Shown piece after piece: positions 4,910 to 47,901 of a stretch of DNA of 64,000 nucleotides. Source of the DNA: Terriglobia bacterium (GTDB lineage: Bacteria > Acidobacteriota > Terriglobia > Bryobacterales > UBA6623); contig VXRL01000004.1 of assembly GCA_009838515.1 (NCBI GenBank), forward strand, positions 72,863 through 136,862, in the 5' to 3' direction. The notes beneath the pieces are model-generated. The model saw nothing but the letters and a program-made list of their open reading frames with translations. It made no database searches and was not told the DNA's origin. A program made the position numbers and the translations under genes. Every line of letters starts with the position of its first letter. The first letter of the stretch is position 1.

Positions 4910-5866
4910 TCAGAAGAACAGGTCGTCGACCTTGGAACGCAGCCACCGCGCTCGGCGCTGCGCGAGGTGGTTGAGCAACCGGTATTGCTCGTGCGCGTCC
5001 GGATCCACCGCGAGGGCCTTGTTCAGCATCTCGTCGAAGAGCGCGCGGTCTTGCTCCGGTATCGCACGCGCCTCCGCATAGGTCACGAACAGGCCGGCGC
5101 GCTCCCCTGCGGACAATTCCAGCGCGCGCCGGTAGCTCTCCTCCATGACACTCTCGGCACCGCCCCCCGGCTTGGCCGACTCCAAGCTCAGCCGGAATTC
5201 GTGGAAGGCCCCGCGGTCCCACGTCTCGTCGAGTTCCAGCGCGCGCTCCAGCATCGCGTCGACCTCGCGCAAGCGCACAACCATGGACGCGTCGGTCGGA
5301 TCGGCCGAGATCGACAGGCCAAGCGCTGCCCCGGCCCAATACAGCAGGTCGATGTGTTTCTTTGCCACGCGCCCGGCGGCCGAGCCGGGGCTGGTTCGAA
5401 ATTCTTCGGCTATGCCCGGATAGGCCGCCTCGAGCCCGCGCATGCTGAAGGCCAGAGAGCGCAGGTAGAGCCTCTTGGCGCGCTCGCGCAACCGCTTGCC
5501 CTCTAGGTAGTCCTCGTCAGCGAGCATCTCGCCCGGCGTGTCGACATAGGCCAGCGCGTACAGGGCGAACCCCTTGGCGGCCGTGACAAGCAGCCCACGG
5601 TGGCGAGGCGTGATTTCAAGCAGGCTCTCGACGAACTTGAGGCTGAATGGCAGGGCGTCGCCCACCAGATCGACATCCGGATCGGTCTCGAACGTCGACG
5701 GTCCCGCCGCTAGCGCGTCACCGACTTGGCGGACAGCGAACTTTTTCACCGAGCAAGCGGAGGCCAAGCAGAGGCAGGCGGCCAGAGTCACGGCCCACCC
5801 GCACGCGCGTCTGGCGCGCGTCCGCGAGGATTTGCCGTTCGTGGTGCGCAGCGGATTCCGGCCCAT
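4910..5866 (-). CDS. TatT-like TRAP-associated TPR lipoprotein
   Basis: A 318-aa lipoprotein of the TRAP transporter TatT component family. The start at ATG 5866 gives a basic N-region, a hydrophobic stretch and a lipobox (CLASAC) with the lipidated cysteine near residue 38. The rest is alpha-helical with degenerate TPR-like repeats, including LLEITPRHRGLLVTAAKGFALYA, LERALELDETWDRGAFHEF and LNKALAVDPDAHEQYRLLNHLA. In Treponema the TatT trimer binds the P-type TRAP receptor and is proposed to channel hydrophobic ligands. Here the matching receptor is at 1527-2573 on the same strand. The gene begins 4 nt after the stop of the DUF885 gene and so belongs to the minus-strand operon that runs down from 8653 or above. 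Confidence 0.8.
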   Translation of the reverse strand: MGRNPLRTTNGKSSRTRARRACGWAVTLAACLCLASACSVKKFAVRQVGDALAAGPSTFETDPDVDLVGDALPFSLKFVESLLEITPRHRGLLVTAAKGFALYALAYVDTPGEMLADEDYLEGKRLRERAKRLYLRSLAFSMRGLEAAYPGIAEEFRTSPGSAAGRVAKKHIDLLYWAGAALGLSISADPTDASMVVRLREVDAMLERALELDETWDRGAFHEFRLSLESAKPGGGAESVMEESYRRALELSAGERAGLFVTYAEARAIPEQDRALFDEMLNKALAVDPDAHEQYRLLNHLAQRRARWLRSKVDDLFF

Positions 5867-40377: not shown

Positions 40378-40686
40378 GGCAATGCGGAATCGAGTGCGGG
40401 CGCGGTTCCTGCCTGTCGCGAGGGACCGTCCTCAGCAGCCGCGGGGCGATAGACCTGGGCTGGCGCAGGGCGGGTTCCGCGAGCCTTCATATTGCGAGGA
40501 ACAGGCTAGCCCCGGCACGGTTTCCCGCACGGGCCGACCCTAGCGCTCGGCTTGCTCTTTAGGCTAGCACGCGCGGGCATCGAGACTTGATGCGTCCACT
40601 CGCTCTGGACCGAGTTCTCATGCGTGACGTCCGAAGTCCGATCAGAATGCGATAGAGTGCAGTCTTCGCAGCGGCAGGGAGCGCCA

Positions 40687-41721
40687 GTGGCACGTACGAT
40701 CCGCCATGCCGGCAATGATCAGGCAGAGCTCGTCCGGAAACGGGCCGAGGAGGGCAGTGCCGAGGCGCAGTTCAACTACGGGAGGTTTTGCTACGAGGGC
40801 AATCTGGTCGAACAAGACCTTGACGAGGCCGCCGATTGGTGGCTGGAAGCCGCCACGCAAGGCCATGTCCAGGCACGGACGCAACTCGGCCACCTGCTCC
40901 GGAGCGGCCTCGGCTTTCAGACAGGGAAGGACGCAATCGCTCGCTGGTGGTTCGAGTATGAGAGTTCGTTCGCGGAAGCCGGCGATGCCGAGGCGCAGCT
41001 CAATCTGGGCAAGATGTACGCCGCGGGCCGTGGCGTGAGCCGCGACCAAGCTGAGGCCGAGCGATGGTGGCAGCGGGCAGCTGCGCAAGGCGATGCGGAG
41101 GCTAGGCTGCAGCTCAAGCGCAGAATCGGCGAAACAGGCGACCTAGAGGTGCAGTGGGAACTGGCGCTGAGTTACTTGGAGGGCCGAGCCGTCCCCAAGG
41201 ACGAGTCCGAAGCTGCACGCTGGCTGGGCTTGGCGGCCCAGCAGGGCCACGAGGAGGCGCAGTGCCGACTGGGACAGCTGCTCATGCACGGCCCTGCCGC
41301 CGTTCGGGACAGTGTCAAGGCGGCCGAGTGGTTGCTTCGCGCAGCGGAACAAGGTAGCCCGCAAGCAGCCCGTGAATTGGGCGATCTGTATCGGGAGGGC
41401 GTCGGTGTCGAGGAAGACGACAGCGAGGCCGAGCGTTGGTGGCGGCAAGCAGCCGAGTTCGGGGAGGCAAGCGCCCAGTACCGCGTCGGAATGATGCATC
41501 TCGAGGGCCGAGGTGTCGTGTCCGATCCTGCTGCCGCCTTGGAGTGGCTGGTCAAGGCAGCCAAGCAGGGGCACAGCGACGCCCAGTTCCAAGTCGGCGG
41601 GATCTACAGGGATGGGCCGGTAGAGCTGCGAAGCGCCCCCGATGCGAACTACTGGCTCGAGCGTGCCGCTGGGCAGGGGCATTGCGATGCCCAGCAACTG
41701 CTTGGTTGGTGGGGGACTTAG
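40687..41721 (+). CDS. Sel1-repeat protein
   Basis: A protein of about 344 aa made of roughly nine Sel1-like (SLR) repeats, each near 36 residues, such as GSAEAQFNYGRFCYEGNLVEQDLDEAADWWLEAATQGHVQA, GDAEAQLNLGKMYAAGRGVSRDQAEAERWWQRAAAQG and GHSDAQFQVGGIYRDG. No signal peptide is visible, so it is probably cytoplasmic, acting as a protein-interaction scaffold. GTG 40687 is preferred because AGGGAG lies 5-6 nt upstream; an earlier GTG at 40624 has none. It is monocistronic and precedes the hipBA module. Sel1 proteins are often expanded in host-associated bacteria. Confidence 0.85.
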   Translation: MARTIRHAGNDQAELVRKRAEEGSAEAQFNYGRFCYEGNLVEQDLDEAADWWLEAATQGHVQARTQLGHLLRSGLGFQTGKDAIARWWFEYESSFAEAGDAEAQLNLGKMYAAGRGVSRDQAEAERWWQRAAAQGDAEARLQLKRRIGETGDLEVQWELALSYLEGRAVPKDESEAARWLGLAAQQGHEEAQCRLGQLLMHGPAAVRDSVKAAEWLLRAAEQGSPQAARELGDLYREGVGVEEDDSEAERWWRQAAEFGEASAQYRVGMMHLEGRGVVSDPAAALEWLVKAAKQGHSDAQFQVGGIYRDGPVELRSAPDANYWLERAAGQGHCDAQQLLGWWGT

Positions 41722-41857
41722 CGGCCGATTGTGACGGGCGCACGTGACTTCACTTTCCGTTGTTGCGGCTGTGAGCTTGTCAGATGATCTGGCAGTGCAG
41801 AGCTGGCAAGAGCGTATTTCTGTCAATAAGTTTTCAGATACAAAATGCAAAAGATTT

Positions 41858-41881
41858 TAAGAAGCTATATATTGATTCTTA
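41858..41881 (+). promoter_or_regulatory. Putative hipBA promoter/operator
   Basis: Perfect 6-bp arms TAAGAA (41858-41863) and TTCTTA (41876-41881) enclose TATATT (41868-41873), which can serve as a -10 box. The right arm reaches the A of the proposed ATG of hipB. The tract is AT-rich inside GC-rich DNA. No good -35 box or ribosome site is seen, so translation may be leaderless or start elsewhere. Confidence 0.4.
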
Positions 41882-42231
41882 TGAGGCAGCGGCTCTATTC
41901 ACCATCCGTCCGGCGCGCATTACGAGAGCTCGGTCGCGACATTCGGATCGCACGCAAGAAACGACGCATGCCAGTGGCGGATTTCGCCGTGCGCATGGGC
42001 GTGTCCCAAGGAACCCTTCTTCGCCTTGAGAAAGGGGATCCCGGCGTGGCCATCGGTGCCGTGGCGATGGCTCTGCTGGCGCTTGGCGAGCTACATCGCC
42101 TCGGGACGATCATCGACATTTCCACTGACGACACCGGCTTGATGCTCGATGTCGGAAGCCTGCCGCAACGGATACGCAGGCCCAAGCCCTTGGCCTTTGC
42201 GCGCGAGGGCACCGCCGAGGGTAGCGAATGA
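41881..42231 (+). CDS. hipB: HipB-type antitoxin (XRE family)
   Basis: A protein of about 116 aa with an XRE helix-turn-helix: LGRDIRIARKKRRMPVADFAVRMGVSQGTLLRLEKGDPGVAIGAVAMALLALG, where MGVSQGTLLRLE is the recognition region. The Ile/Leu-rich helix after it leads to a basic tail (LPQRIRRPKPLAF). HipB binds HipA and represses the operon. Start ATG 41881 gives the more usual N-terminus; ATG 41845 would add 12 hydrophobic residues (QKILRSYILIL) with no known counterpart. The stop overlaps the hipA start (ATGA at 42228-42231), so translation is coupled. Confidence 0.88.
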   Translation: MRQRLYSPSVRRALRELGRDIRIARKKRRMPVADFAVRMGVSQGTLLRLEKGDPGVAIGAVAMALLALGELHRLGTIIDISTDDTGLMLDVGSLPQRIRRPKPLAFAREGTAEGSE

Positions 42232-43487
42232 GCAAGCAATCGAAGCGTGTGCGAGTCGCGATTGGGGAACGGCTCCGGCCGGTTGGCGAGATCGTCTTCG
42301 AGACGGACGGCAGGCGCCAGACAGGCATGTTCCGCTACGCCGTCGAATGGCTTGAGAATCCACAGCGGTTCCCCATCGCGCCTTCGATGCCCCTGGGCGA
42401 GTCCCAGTTCTACGCGTCCGCGTCGCGCGTCAATCCGCGCGACGCCCTGCTTGGGCCGGTCAGTGACGGCTCGCCAGACTCTTGGGGGCGCGGCCTGATC
42501 CGTAGAGCACGGGGCGGCACTTTGACGGAACTTGACTATTTGCTCGCGGTGGACGACCTGACCCGGCAAGGTTCGCTGCGGTACCTCGATGAAGCCGGGA
42601 CACCGCTTGCTCGTTCGTATCCCCCCGTTCCCCGCCTGAGCGAGCTCGCGAAACTCAGGAGCCTGGCGAGTGCCGCCGACAGAGCTGCGGCAATTGCCGC
42701 GGCGGACATGGATCAACTGTTGGGCAGCGCCGGTTCCCTCGGCGGGACCCGGCCTAAAGCGAGTGTCCGCGATGAGAGCGGCCACTTGCACATCGCCAAG
42801 TTCACGACCGACGTGGACTCTATGCCGATCGAACGCGCCGAGGTTGCAACGCTGAAACTCGCTCGGGCGGCAGGCATTCGCGCCGCTTCGGCACGGCTCG
42901 AACTCTCTGGCACGAATCGCCCCGTCGCTCTGATCAAGCGATTCGACCGCAGTGGGGCGGAACGCTTCAGCTATCTCTCCGCCCAATCGTTCTTAGGGAC
43001 TGAGGCCGCCACAGGCGCGTTCTACACGGACATTTCGGACAGCTTGCGGGCGCATGCTCTTGATCCTCGGGGACAGATGGCCGAACTCTATCGCAGGATC
43101 CTGTTCACGATCCTCGTCTCGAATACAGATGACCACCTGAAGAACCACGGACTGCTTCACGCTGGCGCTGGCCGCTGGATTCTTTCCCCAGCTTTCGATA
43201 TCAATCCCCAGCCATTCCGACGGCGGCAATTGGAGACCGGGATTAGCGAGCTCAGCGGCAACACAGCTTCCATCGAGGCTGCTCTTGAGGCGAGTCCCCT
43301 CTTCGGGATCCCACGGGACGTAGCGGCCGAAGAGCTATCTCGGATCACCTCGATCATCGACGAGCAATGGCAGCCAAGCTGTCTTGCAGAGGGCATGACA
43401 GTTGAGGAACTCGCGCTCTACCGGCCCGCCTTCGACCATGAAGAGAGTCTCGTTGCCCGGCGAATTTCGGCAGGTGTTCACTCGTGA
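42228..43487 (+). CDS. hipA: HipA-family serine/threonine kinase toxin
   Basis: A 419-aa HipA. The N-subdomain (IGERLRPVGEIVFETDGRRQTGMFRY and GPVSDGSPDSWGRGLI) and the kinase core are complete: SLGGTRPKASVRDESGHLHIAKF supplies the phosphate-binding loop and Lys, and ALIKRFDRSG, NTDDHLKNHGLL (N299 to L310, catalytic Asp) and LSPAFDINPQP (metal-binding DxN) are present. HipA toxins phosphorylate glutamyl-tRNA synthetase or related targets and induce dormancy. No motif is missing, so it should be active. It is coupled to hipB by a 4-nt overlap. Confidence 0.92.
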   Translation: MSKQSKRVRVAIGERLRPVGEIVFETDGRRQTGMFRYAVEWLENPQRFPIAPSMPLGESQFYASASRVNPRDALLGPVSDGSPDSWGRGLIRRARGGTLTELDYLLAVDDLTRQGSLRYLDEAGTPLARSYPPVPRLSELAKLRSLASAADRAAAIAAADMDQLLGSAGSLGGTRPKASVRDESGHLHIAKFTTDVDSMPIERAEVATLKLARAAGIRAASARLELSGTNRPVALIKRFDRSGAERFSYLSAQSFLGTEAATGAFYTDISDSLRAHALDPRGQMAELYRRILFTILVSNTDDHLKNHGLLHAGAGRWILSPAFDINPQPFRRRQLETGISELSGNTASIEAALEASPLFGIPRDVAAEELSRITSIIDEQWQPSCLAEGMTVEELALYRPAFDHEESLVARRISAGVHS

Positions 43488-43900
43488 TGCAGCAGGTCCT
43501 CGCGCCAGCCCTCGGTCGGTACGACGATCCCCGAGGTTTTCGCCCACGGCCCATGTCTCCGATCCCTGGCCTCAGAACGGCGTTCCGAACATGCCTGTCT
43601 AGTCGGTGAAATCTGCGTGGCTATGGCGACACGTTTCCTTGTCCGGACTGTCTCGGCGTCCTTTGCGGAGAACATGTTGCAACGATTCTCTGCACGCTTT
43701 GCACGTTCGCACATGCAAGGGTCTAGCAGCCCAACGTTCTCTTCCTGATGTCCGACGATCGCGCCGCAAACCCGTTGGGTGCCCGTGGCGGACGCCTAGC
43801 ACCATTGGACCCAACGACCGAGGTGGACAAGCTGGCCGGCTCGGGAATGCTGTTCGAGAACGCGTCTTGCACCAATAGGTATGCCGCCCTAGCGAACAGC
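43488..43900. other. Intergenic stretch without a recognisable gene
   Basis: About 410 bases after hipA. Frames on both strands are short and unconvincing. No tRNA or repeat was seen. It may be the debris of an older insertion next to the toxin module, but nothing in it can be named. Confidence 0.4.
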
Positions 43901-44197
43901 ATGCACGTACTGGCGGCAGCCGCGATCCTGCTCGGCCTGAGTGCCTCGGCCCATACAAAACCGGAATTCTTCGCCGAATCTGTCGCCTTCGGCGGCAAGG
44001 ACTACCTCTTCTGCCACACCGAGCCCGGCGCCGGGCGCACGTGGAACGACCGCGGGCACTGGCTCGTGACCCGCAAGCAGGAGAGCGGTCAGGAGACCAT
44101 CGCCGGCAGCTCGCTGTCAGACTATGTTTCGCCGGAAGCCAGTGAAATCAGCCGGTCGGCAGCGTCGGAGGCACAGCCGAACCGCCGCGGCTCTTAG
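43901..44197 (+). CDS. Possible small secreted protein
   Basis: A 98-codon frame starting at ATG 43901 that opens with a plausible signal peptide (HVLAAAAILLGLSASAHT) and then KPEFFAESVAFGGKDYLFCHTEPGAGRTWNDRGHW. It is not recognised. After its TAG the same frame stays open for 64 more codons to 44392 without a start, which could mean one longer gene with a nonsense mutation. No ribosome site is evident. Weakly supported. Confidence 0.25.
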   Translation: MHVLAAAAILLGLSASAHTKPEFFAESVAFGGKDYLFCHTEPGAGRTWNDRGHWLVTRKQESGQETIAGSSLSDYVSPEASEISRSAASEAQPNRRGS

Positions 44198-44516
44198 CAT
44201 TTCGGCTTCGAGGAGATTAGGAATCAGGGCAACATCTCCGCCAAGGGGGTGATCGCACGGAAAGGACGCAAGCTCTTTCGGAGCTACAGCCAGACACACG
44301 CCCTTCAAGTACTAGGCCCCATCACAGAATGCTACGCGCGACGCCAGTTGAGTACTCAGCAATGGCTCCATTGGAGCTGTGAAACCTGAGTCTCGGACGA
44401 TACGTCCGACTACCTCCGTTGCCTCCAGCAACAGCTTCTGCTGCGTGCAATCGGCACAGAGTTCACGGAACATCGTGGAAATCGAGACAGCACGTCCGAA
44501 ACTACGACCACTGTGT

Positions 44517-46052
44517 ATGGCTGGGGCTTTCGCGGGGCTCCGGATCAGGGGCGTTGGCGGATTCTCGTTGGCGGCAGCGACCCTCGTCCTGTGGGCGGGG
44601 ACGCTACTCGCCCAGCAAGCATCGTACGAGTCAAACTGGAATCCAGAGTGGGACCAAGCCGGATCCGACAGTTCGTCGAGCTACGGCAGCTCGATCTCCA
44701 ACTCGAACAGCTACGGCGGTTCCCAATCTACCTCGAACACGTACGGCTCCTCGTCAATCAGTTACGGCAGCTCAGATTCCACGTCGAACACGTACACCAG
44801 TAGCTCCAACAAATACGGCAGCAGCTCTAGCTCCTACGGCAGCAGCTCTAATTCCTACGGCGGTAGTTCGAACTCCTACGGCCAGAGCAAGAACTCCTAC
44901 GGCAGTTCGAACTCCAGCGTCCACCAAACTTATCGCACCGATAGCGACAGGGATTCCGAACGCTGCCGACACTACAACGGCTCTCCCAAAATATGCAGAC
45001 CTCGTGGAATGGGCTACCCCATATACTTGGCTGGCCGTGTTGCGCTAGCAAGCGGCGAAGCCTTGTACGAGCCAGTTAGGATCGCTATCACTTGTGGCGG
45101 GCATGCAATACCGCAGGTCTACACAGACGCTAGGGGACGTTTCAATTTCCAACCAAAATGTCGACCACTGTTGGCTCTATCAGACGCTAGTTTACGCAGC
45201 TTCTCGCTGTATCCCGGATTCGGTCAAGGACTGACAACTACGACCGGGACGGCAAACCTAATGGGCTGCGAACTGTTTGCAGAACTCCCCGGACACTGGT
45301 CGACCCGCGTTCGGCTGGGCTTGGTCGCGGCACCCGCACGCAATGAGGTCGGCCTGATCATCCTGAGTCCACTCGACAACTCGACTGGCCGTTCCGTTAG
45401 TGTGACAACGCTGACAGCGCCACCTGGAGCTAAGAAGGCTTACTGGAATGGGCTCAGAGCATTGCGCAAGAGGAAGCCCGATTTCAGGAAGGCTGCCAAT
45501 CTCTTCGAGCGCGCCGTCAAGCTCCACCCGGAGCACGCCCAAGCCTGGGCCGCACTTGGTGAGGCGCGCGCCGCTCTTGGAGAGGCGGACAGAGCCAAAG
45601 AAGCGTTTGCGCGCTCGATCCAGTCTGATCCCGAGCTGTTGCAGCCTTATGACGCGATGATACGAATTGCAGCAAGAAATCGTGATTGGGCGCATCTTGA
45701 TTCGCTGGCCACGAAGTATCTGAAGCTGGCACCGGGCTCGTCCCGAGTCCGCTTCTACAGTGCAGTGGCAGCGTGGGAACTGGGCGACATCGCGCGAACG
45801 GAGTCCACCATCAAGCAGATGGAAGAGCTCGGCGAACTGGACGGATGGCCCATGAGCTACGTCATTATGGCGCTAGCGCATGAGCGGCGTGCTGATTTTG
45901 AGACTGCGGCCGACTATTACGAGCAGTACATTGAGATCTCCGTCGACGCGGAGATATCTTCGCTGGCTCGAAGGGCAATCTACGACTGGGGCCATCTGCA
46001 GGTCATCGAAACTCGACCCGTCACATTGGCACATGCAGCGGAGCCTGAGTAA
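44517..46052 (+). CDS. Secreted protein with Ser/Tyr/Gly-rich prion-like domain, regulatory sandwich and TPRs
   Basis: A 511-aa exported protein. A signal peptide (FSLAAATLVLWAGTLLAQQ) is followed by about 80 residues composed almost wholly of Ser, Tyr, Gly, Asn, Thr and Gln, with nine YG units (SSYG, NSYG, NTYG, ISYG, NKYG and so on). Then comes a carboxypeptidase-regulatory-like beta-sandwich (YLAGRVALASGEALYEPVRIAITCGG to GRFNFQPKC) and a C-terminal TPR region (AANLFERAVKLHPEHAQAWAALGEARAALG, AKEAFARSIQSDPELL, and YYEQYIEIS later). The sandwich plus TPR pairing is common in Acidobacteriota; the low-complexity insert is not. It may help self-assembly or surface attachment. ATG 44517 starts just before the signal. 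Confidence 0.75.
   Translation: MAGAFAGLRIRGVGGFSLAAATLVLWAGTLLAQQASYESNWNPEWDQAGSDSSSSYGSSISNSNSYGGSQSTSNTYGSSSISYGSSDSTSNTYTSSSNKYGSSSSSYGSSSNSYGGSSNSYGQSKNSYGSSNSSVHQTYRTDSDRDSERCRHYNGSPKICRPRGMGYPIYLAGRVALASGEALYEPVRIAITCGGHAIPQVYTDARGRFNFQPKCRPLLALSDASLRSFSLYPGFGQGLTTTTGTANLMGCELFAELPGHWSTRVRLGLVAAPARNEVGLIILSPLDNSTGRSVSVTTLTAPPGAKKAYWNGLRALRKRKPDFRKAANLFERAVKLHPEHAQAWAALGEARAALGEADRAKEAFARSIQSDPELLQPYDAMIRIAARNRDWAHLDSLATKYLKLAPGSSRVRFYSAVAAWELGDIARTESTIKQMEELGELDGWPMSYVIMALAHERRADFETAADYYEQYIEISVDAEISSLARRAIYDWGHLQVIETRPVTLAHAAEPE
44668..44920 (+). repeat. Degenerate tandem repeat coding (S/N)SYG units
   Basis: Imperfect in-frame repeats built around TCCTACGGC plus Ser/Asn codons, spaced mainly 18-27 bases apart; the most regular part is 44815-44905. 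The DNA copies differ at third positions while the peptide stays alike, which suggests selection on the protein and not recent slippage alone. Confidence 0.7.
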
Positions 46053-46209: not shown

Positions 46210-46632
46210 CTAGGGGTGAGTAGCGTGGTGCACTTGCGGTGATATCAGCGCGACTGACGGAAAATAGGCGCGATAGCGCCTGGTGTCCCGGGTTAGCAGC
46301 GTCAGCCCTTCGAGCGCGGCGTGCGCTCCGATATAGAAGTCGGGCATCGGCGACGAGCGCGCTCCTCCGGCACGGCGGTACTCCAGGAATGTCCTTCCCG
46401 CACCGAACCCTGCTTCGAACGGGAGTTGCAGGCGCTCAAGCAGCAGGGCGTCCAGCTCACGGTCCAGTTCTGAAACGCTGTCAAAGGCGAGCGAGGTTTC
46501 CGCATAGATCAACGGGTTGATCCCAGCCAAGCCCGTCGCTCGCGCATCCCTAAGCGCAGTCACCGACCACAGCCTCCATGTGGCGTCTTCAGTGAAGATG
46601 TCCAGCAGGACACTTGAGTCAACGAGGACCAA
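46210..46632 (-). CDS. vapC: VapC-type PIN-domain ribonuclease toxin
   Basis: A 140-aa PIN-domain protein. Acidic site residues are visible: VLVDSSVLLDIF at the N-terminus, an INPLIYAETSLAF helix, and PMPDFYIGAHAALEGLTLLTRDTRRYRAYFP, where D and the later TRDTRRY match VapC. The start is TTG 46632, with a GGGGAGG site 10 nt upstream. It follows a fragment of a VapB gene by 4 nt; that antitoxin lacks its N-terminal DNA-binding part (see 46637-46813). Such toxins cut tRNA or rRNA. A toxin beside a damaged antitoxin implies either leftover antidote activity in the fragment or cross-neutralisation. Confidence 0.85.
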   Translation of the reverse strand: MVLVDSSVLLDIFTEDATWRLWSVTALRDARATGLAGINPLIYAETSLAFDSVSELDRELDALLLERLQLPFEAGFGAGRTFLEYRRAGGARSSPMPDFYIGAHAALEGLTLLTRDTRRYRAYFPSVALISPQVHHATHP

Positions 46633-46636
46633 GCTC

Positions 46637-46813
46637 TCAATCCTCCCCGCTGGTCAGGTGCAAGATCTCGTCGGTCGACAGACCCTTGGCGGCTACACCG
46701 CAAGCATTTCGAAGCCGCCGTTCCATCAGGTCTTTGAGGCTCACGGCAGGACGGATCAGTGCCCCGCCTTGAAGTTCCTCGAAGACGACCTCGGCGGGCC
46801 AGCGGCCGGGGTA
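46637..46813 (-). pseudogene. VapB-type antitoxin remnant, N-terminus lost
   Basis: Reading upstream of vapC, the frame ending at TGA 46637 translates as PAEVVFEELQGGALIRPAV and, further on, KGLSTDEILHLTSGED, the C-terminal half of an AbrB-like VapB. The frame is closed by TAG at 46814-46816 and has no ATG, GTG or TTG before the conserved part. The AbrB swapped-hairpin domain expected ahead of it is missing in all three frames. The next gene upstream, on the other strand, starts at 46900. The piece kept is the toxin-binding portion. Confidence 0.6.
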
Positions 46814-46899
46814 CTACGTGTCACGCGAAAGCTGGCCGCCCCGCACGCCTCGCAGCCAGGTTGGTCCGACGATTGATTTACGATGGTCTTCTGGTCGCG

Positions 46900-47901
46900 A
46901 TGATCATCGGGTTGACCGGTACGAACGGCTCGGGCAAGACGGTTGCCTGCGAATTGCTGAAGCGCAAGGGGTTTCAGTTCTACTCGCTTTCGGACATTAT
47001 CCGGGAAGAGCTGGCAGAGAAGGGCCTGGCCGCCAATCGCGAGAATCTGATCGCCGAGGGCAACCGCCTGCGGACCGAACTGGGTTCGGCGATACTGGCG
47101 CTCCGTGTGGGGCGCAAGCTTCGCCACGATCAGAATTACGTGATCGACTCGATCCGCAACCCACGCGAAGTTCAGGCCCTGCGGGACTCGGGCGAGTTCC
47201 GTCTGCTGCACCTTGACGCTCCGCGACAGCTGCGCTACGAGCGCGTGGTGCTTCGCGGCGGCGAGCGCGTGCCGGCCTCCTTTGAAGAGTTCGCCGAACA
47301 GGAAGATCGCGAGATTAATGGCTCCAACGAAGCGCACCAGCGTCTGCGGGCGACCTGGGCCGAAGCCGACGAGACGCTGGACAACAGCGGCACGCTGGAT
47401 GGGTTCAAGGCCGCCGTCACCGAACTCGTCAAGCGCTGGATGATGGGGTCCGAACGGCCGGGATGGGATGAGTACTTCATGCAGATCGCCCGCATCGTGG
47501 CGTTGCGCTCCAATTGCATGAAGCGCAAGGTAGCCGCCGTGATCGTGCGCGACCGCCGGATCATCTCCACCGGGTACAACGGGACCCCGCGTGGAGCGAA
47601 GAACTGCAACGAGGGGGGGTGCCCTCGGTGCAACTCGCTCGCGGACAGCGGCACGATGCTGAGCGAGTGTCTGTGCAGTCACGCCGAGGAGAATTCCATC
47701 GTGCAGGCTGCCTATCACGGCATCACTGTCAAGGGCGCGACCCTCTATTCGACCTTCTCGCCGTGCCTGCTTTGCACCAAGATGATCATCAACGCCGGCA
47801 TCTCGCGCGTGGTCTACAACCTTGAGTATCCGCTGAACGATACGGCCAAGGAACTGTTGGCCGAGACGGGCGTGGAGCTGTGCCACGTGGCGCTTCCCTA
47901 G
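46900..47901 (+). CDS. P-loop kinase fused to deoxycytidylate deaminase (AvcD-like architecture)
   Basis: A 333-aa two-domain protein. Residues 1 to about 180 form a P-loop kinase related to dephospho-CoA kinase: GLTGTNGSGKT (4-14), YSLSDIIREELAEKG, and VIDSIRNPREVQALRDSGEFRLLHLDAPRQLRYER. Residues about 190-330 form a zinc-dependent dCMP deaminase: H261 in SHAEENSIVQAA and C289/C292 in SPCLLCTK. A stand-alone dCMP deaminase makes dUMP for thymidylate; the same kinase-deaminase fusion is found in the anti-phage AvcD proteins, which deplete cytosine nucleotides, though AvcD is longer (over 500 aa). ATG 46900 is the only sensible start. A housekeeping role in dTTP supply cannot be excluded. Confidence 0.85.
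   Translation: MIIGLTGTNGSGKTVACELLKRKGFQFYSLSDIIREELAEKGLAANRENLIAEGNRLRTELGSAILALRVGRKLRHDQNYVIDSIRNPREVQALRDSGEFRLLHLDAPRQLRYERVVLRGGERVPASFEEFAEQEDREINGSNEAHQRLRATWAEADETLDNSGTLDGFKAAVTELVKRWMMGSERPGWDEYFMQIARIVALRSNCMKRKVAAVIVRDRRIISTGYNGTPRGAKNCNEGGCPRCNSLADSGTMLSECLCSHAEENSIVQAAYHGITVKGATLYSTFSPCLLCTKMIINAGISRVVYNLEYPLNDTAKELLAETGVELCHVALP

Follow-up and report, generated by a model that had tools for sequence, protein, structure and literature searches.

What does a tyrosine-rich heptad repeat do near the N-terminus of a protein that a bacterium appears to export? Comparable spacing of tyrosine-glycine (YG) units, about one in every seven residues, is familiar from animal and fungal proteins that form condensates or belong to the cell wall; here, judging from the sequence, the pattern is found on a bacterial exported protein that carries a CRD-like beta-sandwich and a TPR domain and is encoded within a 64-kb stretch of DNA (64,000 nucleotides), referred to below as the window. 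The tyrosines of this segment may take part in contacts, or the segment may be a flexible polar tail of which the repeat is a by-product of DNA turnover. We weigh these and two further explanations against the composition of the tail, its distribution among relatives, and the selection acting on it.

Gene organization and export signal

The preliminary description of this locus called an open reading frame on the forward strand from an ATG at 44517 to a stop at 46052, and the same boundaries were obtained here. In-frame GTG codons at 44379, 44445, and 44475 are also possible starts, and no clear ribosome-binding site accompanies the ATG or any of these earlier GTGs. The organization of the gene is given in Table 1. 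On the strength of its predicted signal peptide, the window protein would be exported by the Sec route; its cleavage and location are likewise presumed. No lipobox follows the signal peptide. The Gln column after the signal peptide is nearly invariant in 80 family relatives, and Gln occupies position +1 in 91 of 105 family members according to simple rule-based cleavage calls, which are biased by construction towards Q, E, D, and S. The idea of a Q-rule like that of Bacteroidetes, served by glutaminyl cyclase, found no support: a search confined to the cyclase type Glu_cyclase_2 detected it in none of the genus's 11 genomes. When neighbouring proteins were scanned roughly, several residues occurred at +1, Gln being one of them.

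Table 1. Features of the window gene and of the sequence preceding it (window coordinates).
Feature	Coordinates	Strand	Basis
Whole gene: signal peptide, Tyr-heptad tail, CRD-like beta-sandwich, TPR; 511 aa	44517..46052	+	sequence, Pfam, AlphaFold2
Signal peptide, predicted cleavage LLA/QQAS, residues 32/33	44517..44612	+	sequence; post-signal Gln column
Low-complexity tail, residues 50-133, nine YG, mostly 7-residue spacing	44664..44915	+	composition; pLDDT
Transthyretin/carboxypeptidase-regulatory-like beta-sandwich, residues 163-291, two conserved Cys	45003..45389	+	fold match, conservation
TPR domain, residues 303-493	45423..45995	+	Pfam, AlphaFold2, fold match
PQQ-dependent dehydrogenase N-terminus remnant	43748..44197	+	sequence similarity, shared order with C56 locus

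A tyrosine-phased, low-complexity tail

The segment of Ser, Tyr, Gly, Asn, Thr, and Gln with nine YG units that had been described earlier is readily delimited. It comprises 84 residues (S 41, G 11, Y 10, N 9, T 5, Q 2, D 2, I 2, K 2), 93% of which belong to these six amino acids, whereas elsewhere in the window, whatever the reading frame, no stretch of 85 residues has more than 55%. Successive tyrosines are separated by 10, 10, 7, 10, 7, 7, 7, 7, and 7 residues, an evenness matched by none of 20,000 shuffles, and the number of YG pairs lies above that of all shuffles. A chance origin of the pattern is ruled out by the spacing shuffles together with the six-frame composition. The underlying DNA is an imperfect 21-bp repeat, in which serine codons are drawn from both boxes (25 TCN and 16 AGY) and all ten tyrosines are encoded by TAC.

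The tail is predicted to be disordered: AlphaFold2 assigns a pLDDT below 50 to nearly all of residues 29-149, and nothing in PDB resembles its sequence at E values up to 10. The label 'prion-like' is used here in the compositional sense from which it derives.

The folded core

The folded part of the protein is modelled with high confidence. AlphaFold2, run on 80 aligned sequences, gives a pLDDT above 90 over most of the beta and TPR domains. Pfam recognizes the TPR domain alone (TPR_2, 36.5 bits against a cut-off of 27). A Foldseek search with the full model returned, among the matches listed, only TPR chains, and the beta domain was therefore modelled separately, reaching a mean pLDDT of 83. 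In this form it matches two carboxypeptidase D domains, 3mn8_B (Z 9.1, rmsd 2.4, 84 aligned) and 5aq0_B (Z 8.9, rmsd 2.4, 82 aligned), although the best E-value given by Foldseek itself is only 2.8e-3. CarboxypepD_reg (PF13620) gives weak Pfam matches in 27 of 62 related beta domains (best E 1.9e-4) and none in the window's own beta domain. The models suggest that the beta domain shares a transthyretin-like fold with carboxypeptidase D domains, a likeness of fold that does not imply one of function. Cys193 is invariant and Cys251 is at least 90% conserved among family relatives, which suggests a Cys193-Cys251 disulphide. The preliminary account of an exported TPR protein with a beta-sandwich therefore stands: the signal peptide is present, and both domains are real by Pfam, AlphaFold2, and fold matches.

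An order-wide family in which the tail is variable

Family members were sought in 61 genomes, the own genome and 60 relatives, and matches occur in 60 of them, although the weaker matches often cover TPR alone. Among named genomes, a scan placed the family almost throughout in Bryobacterales and other Acidobacteriota, the exceptions being two MAGs labelled Arcobacter and Acidimicrobiia; members include MAGs named from groundwater, lakes, and soil. The tails of 105 distinct members were compared by script. In nearly all, the signal peptide is followed at once by a low-complexity tail, usually of about 50-65 residues and of Gly, Pro, Thr, Gln, or Asn type (GGGT, GGGN, PTP, QQ) with little or no Tyr. 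The tail itself is therefore a family feature, and the S/Y/G type is the exception.

In the family tree, S/Y-rich tails are spread over several subclades, all belonging to one genus. Clade A contains the window copy, the C56 paralogue, and their relatives; the genes of clade B (L039-L043) stand in tandem, two or three together, except for one that is single; clade C comprises L053 and L055. One C9-type paralogue (L049) has a further S/Y-rich tail outside these clades. Two short-tailed genes, one in L050 and one in L072, passed the script's Tyr threshold through length alone, so the six tail-type changes tabulated overstate the number of switches. Heptads are seen in the window copy, in ten clade B genes, and in two clade C genes, and L045 adds two further 7-residue Tyr intervals. 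In the nearest relatives of the window gene (L006, L038, L052) the tails are rich in S/Y but show no regular heptads, and the tail of another near relative (L044) has no Tyr. The core protein evidently does not need heptads, since these nearest relatives lack them and tails across the order are nearly Tyr-free.

This distribution bears directly on the simplest explanation, a plain entropic spacer. Any polar, flexible, protease-tolerant tail would then suffice, and the heptad would reflect minisatellite turnover at a permissive site, as the imperfect 21-bp array under the repeat would lead one to expect. Tails of very different composition, SSSYG among them, occupy the same position, and the heptads were lost from, or never present in, close relatives of the window gene. 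The explanation is a strong one, given that almost any polar tail seems acceptable in this family and that the sister genes of the window copy do without the heptad; we regard it as a substantial possibility, if still a somewhat doubtful one.

Tail length points in another direction. Tails of the S/Y clades span 82-171 residues, against about 60 in the others, and serine makes up half of the window segment, with threonine adding another 6%. Both features would suit an adhesive surface stalk, glycosylated on Ser/Thr or cross-linked through Tyr, that presents the beta-sandwich and TPR domains. However, a free N-terminal tail is no obvious stalk, no membrane or cell-wall anchor was found in the window protein, and the few neighbours examined include no glycosyltransferase, peroxidase, or tyrosinase. 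We consider such a stalk very unlikely.

The heptad is confined to one genus

To follow the heptad at the DNA level, a pattern of two YG codon pairs, five codons apart, was used. It gives multiple matches in this genus, coinciding with genes of the CRD-TPR family, and scattered single or double matches only in other genomes. Three consecutive heptads are present in 6 of 257 Bryobacterales genomes, all of this genus and all in CRD-TPR family genes; the 395 other genomes in a sample drawn from across the phylum have none. Among 15 YG-rich tails the Tyr interval is exactly 7 in 66 of 105 cases, the rest being mostly 14, 15, or 21-22. The architecture is thus as unusual for a bacterial exported TPR protein as had been supposed, with the YG-heptad tail confined, among the genomes searched, to a single genus. 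A 7-residue Tyr period that recurs in several subclades and in no other genus searched speaks against a plain spacer.

Selection on the tails of clades B and C

Five orthologue pairs from clades B and C allowed tail and core to be compared. Their dN/dS values are 0.12-0.32 in the tail versus 0.13-0.37 in the core. The tails have accumulated 122 codon changes, 74 synonymous and 48 nonsynonymous, where a neutral simulation expects 35 ± 5 synonymous changes. This synonymous excess rules out neutral drift of these tails and supports purifying selection on the heptad tails of clades B and C. Column conservation in clade B tails is 95% for Gly, 93% for Tyr, 91% for Ser, 74% for Thr, and 64% for Asn. 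Both the purifying selection and the better conservation of Tyr than of the adjacent Asn and Thr weigh against a spacer to which composition is indifferent.

The result applies to the clade B and C tails rather than directly to the window copy. The window tail and that of its paralogue are 39% identical with a dS of 1.8, too poorly alignable for a neutrality test, and for L038 versus L006 the tail is more relaxed than the core (dN/dS 0.54 and 0.18). The preliminary description had argued for selection on the peptide, and this holds for the comparable tails of clades B and C, whereas the nearest relatives of the window gene lack heptads. Its reading would have fallen had the segment been absent, or replaced by unrelated linkers, in all close orthologues; this is not the case, because the ten clade B and two clade C genes carry heptads.

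Genomic neighbourhood and apparent host association

An intact PQQ-dependent dehydrogenase gene lies upstream of the C56 paralogue (G000:C56, L006:1561-3840), and a remnant of such a gene precedes the window copy; the window locus therefore seems to have arisen by segmental copying of the C56 locus. An orphan C-terminal family fragment (L006:4560-4742; G000:C56:164559-164741), placed between that dehydrogenase and the paralogue at C56, is 74% identical to residues 451-511 and is left from another copy. A clade B heptad gene of the own genome (L077, G000:C19:35000-40000, about 1850-2569) is truncated after about 150 residues, comprising the tail and the early beta domain, with the remainder missing.

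Several neighbouring genes deserve mention in their own right. A PIN-domain toxin-like gene lies just downstream of the window gene (46210-46632, reverse strand), and by eye a PIN-like gene also lies just upstream of the C56 paralogue. Another gene (46759-47901, forward strand) encodes a P-loop kinase-like domain fused to a dCMP/cytidine deaminase (Pfam AAA_18 and dCMP_cyt_deam_1; PADLOC dCTPase model, E 2e-59), which may have a housekeeping role as a deaminase or may defend against phage by depleting nucleotides. Upstream, on the forward strand, an HTH protein followed by a HipA-like kinase (41845-43487; HipA_C, E 4e-40) forms a HipBA-type toxin-antitoxin pair, and a Sel1-repeat protein with six repeats (40624-41721) is another eukaryotic-like repeat protein nearby. 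Across the family, the commonest neighbour is a divergent gene for a PepSY-type lipoprotein, present at 24 of 57 clustered family-bearing loci (L098, L107, and 22 other Bryobacterales loci, mostly at about 5000-5700 on the reverse strand). It is seen only at loci outside the window gene's genus and may cooperate functionally with the family core. An FG-GAP/ASPIC-UnbV gene adjoins clade B tandem arrays (L039:8052-9905, forward strand, and also the L041 and L043 loci).

Relatives within the genus include jk18x bins and the records p16x60, RHO3, SB0661, and OX638379, the last four of which are presumed to come from sponges. The jk18x names belong to MAGs of Caribbean Ircinia sponges (PMC9531527), and the genus appears to consist of sponge symbionts. 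TPR domains are reported to be enriched in sponge-symbiont MAGs (PMC9531527; PMC8163846). Together with the restriction of the heptad tail to this genus, these observations would fit a eukaryotic-like protein that acts on sponge cells through its TPR core and maybe also through its FET/DDR48-like tail, for example in avoiding phagocytosis. The CRD-TPR core is, however, no invention of symbiosis, because the family is order-wide and extends to the groundwater, lake, and soil MAGs, and no host-directed secretion signal was identified for the window protein. A role on sponge cells is, on balance, decidedly unlikely.

A working model for the tail

We tentatively favour a disordered tail that makes multivalent, tyrosine-mediated contacts on an exported CRD-TPR scaffold, and hold this to be the leading possibility without calling it probable. 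The protein would be a Sec-exported, scaffold-type protein, whose conserved function would reside in the CRD-like beta-sandwich and TPR domain and probably consists in binding other proteins, either in the periplasm or on the cell surface. Cleavage of the signal peptide would leave a free, disordered N-terminal tail. In this genus, a 21-bp minisatellite would have converted an ordinary Gly/Asn/Pro-type tail into one with a Tyr-Gly about every seven residues in a Ser/Asn/Thr background, the tyrosines acting as putative stickers and the Ser/Asn/Thr stretches as spacers. Weak multivalent contacts could then form between the tail and itself, paralogues with the same tail, or a partner in the envelope or host. 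In favour of this reading are the tyrosine spacing, the conservation of Tyr columns, the selection seen in clades B and C, the recurrence of heptads within a single genus, and the precedent of CsgF, described below; against it are the heptad-free tails of the window gene's nearest relatives and the near absence of Tyr from tails across the order. Since the window tail has ten tyrosines and no arginine, its self-association at ordinary concentration may be weak. Phase separation and adhesion, as proposed in the preliminary description, are at most possibilities, and so is a location outside the cell instead of in the periplasm.

A bolder version holds that a genus living in sponges convergently evolved a FET/DDR48-like YG-heptad tail that forms tyrosine-sticker condensates or gels at the envelope or host interface. 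We consider this unlikely; if true, aromatic-sticker phase separation would be used outside the cytoplasm, in symbiosis.

Comparison with known systems

The window tail resembles the low-complexity regions of the FET proteins FUS, EWSR1, and TAF15, as had been proposed, insofar as [G/S]Y[G/S] units are repeated in a polar, predicted disordered segment, although in the strict sense these units number seven rather than nine. FET prion-like regions are Gln-rich, intracellular, and attached to RNA-binding domains. Unlike these, the window tail is Gln-poor (2 of 84 residues) and phases its tyrosines at about seven residues in a protein that is predicted to be exported and shows only TPR in Pfam.

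A very similar periodicity is found in the fungal DDR48/Cprp proteins, which are built of tandem units of about seven residues centred on SYG, (N/D)(N/D)(N/D)SYGS, and are prion-like by PLAAC, predicted to be disordered, and cell-wall-associated in yeasts (PMC10512284). SYG heptads and predicted disorder are shared with the window tail. The fungal spacers are acidic Asn/Asp stretches, whereas those of the window tail are Ser/Asn/Thr with two Asp in 84 residues; the fungal repeats span most of the protein, whereas the window repeat is confined to its 84-residue tail; and DDR48/Cprp has neither CRD nor TPR. Homology is not claimed.

Two bacterial envelope proteins offer parallels to parts of the architecture. 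CsgF of the curli secretion system is exported, and its N-terminal prion-like tail phase-separates at the cell surface via aromatic residues (PMC10133297). Like the window protein, it places a disordered N-terminus directly after the signal peptide, but the CsgF tail is short (residues 20-54), of Asn/Gln/Phe type, and without YG repeat or TPR, and it works with CsgG. PG1058 (PorE) of type IX secretion combines TPR with a carboxypeptidase-regulatory-like fold, as the window protein does, in an envelope protein proposed to be a scaffold, according to the abstract (PMC5053529). As described there, it is a lipoprotein with a beta-propeller and an OmpA-like domain, and the abstract describes no low-complexity tail; the window protein lacks a lipobox and shows only TPR in Pfam.

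A further comparison lies within the family. The single-copy CRD-TPR orthologue found in the same genus (own copy G000:C63, L064) has the same type of signal peptide, the beta-sandwich, and the TPR domain at 36% identity, but its tail is 58 residues of Gly/Asn/Gln type, ends in NDPFG motifs, and is without Tyr. Nature provides a series here: the conserved exported core is joined to tails without Tyr over the order as a whole, and to Tyr-heptad tails in a single genus that is apparently associated with sponges. With this series one can ask directly whether selection favours aromatic sticker repeats for assembly outside the bacterial cytoplasm. If the tail does not assemble, it would be a warning against inferring function from such composition; if it does, it would be a bacterial, extracytoplasmic parallel to the low-complexity regions of FET and DDR48.
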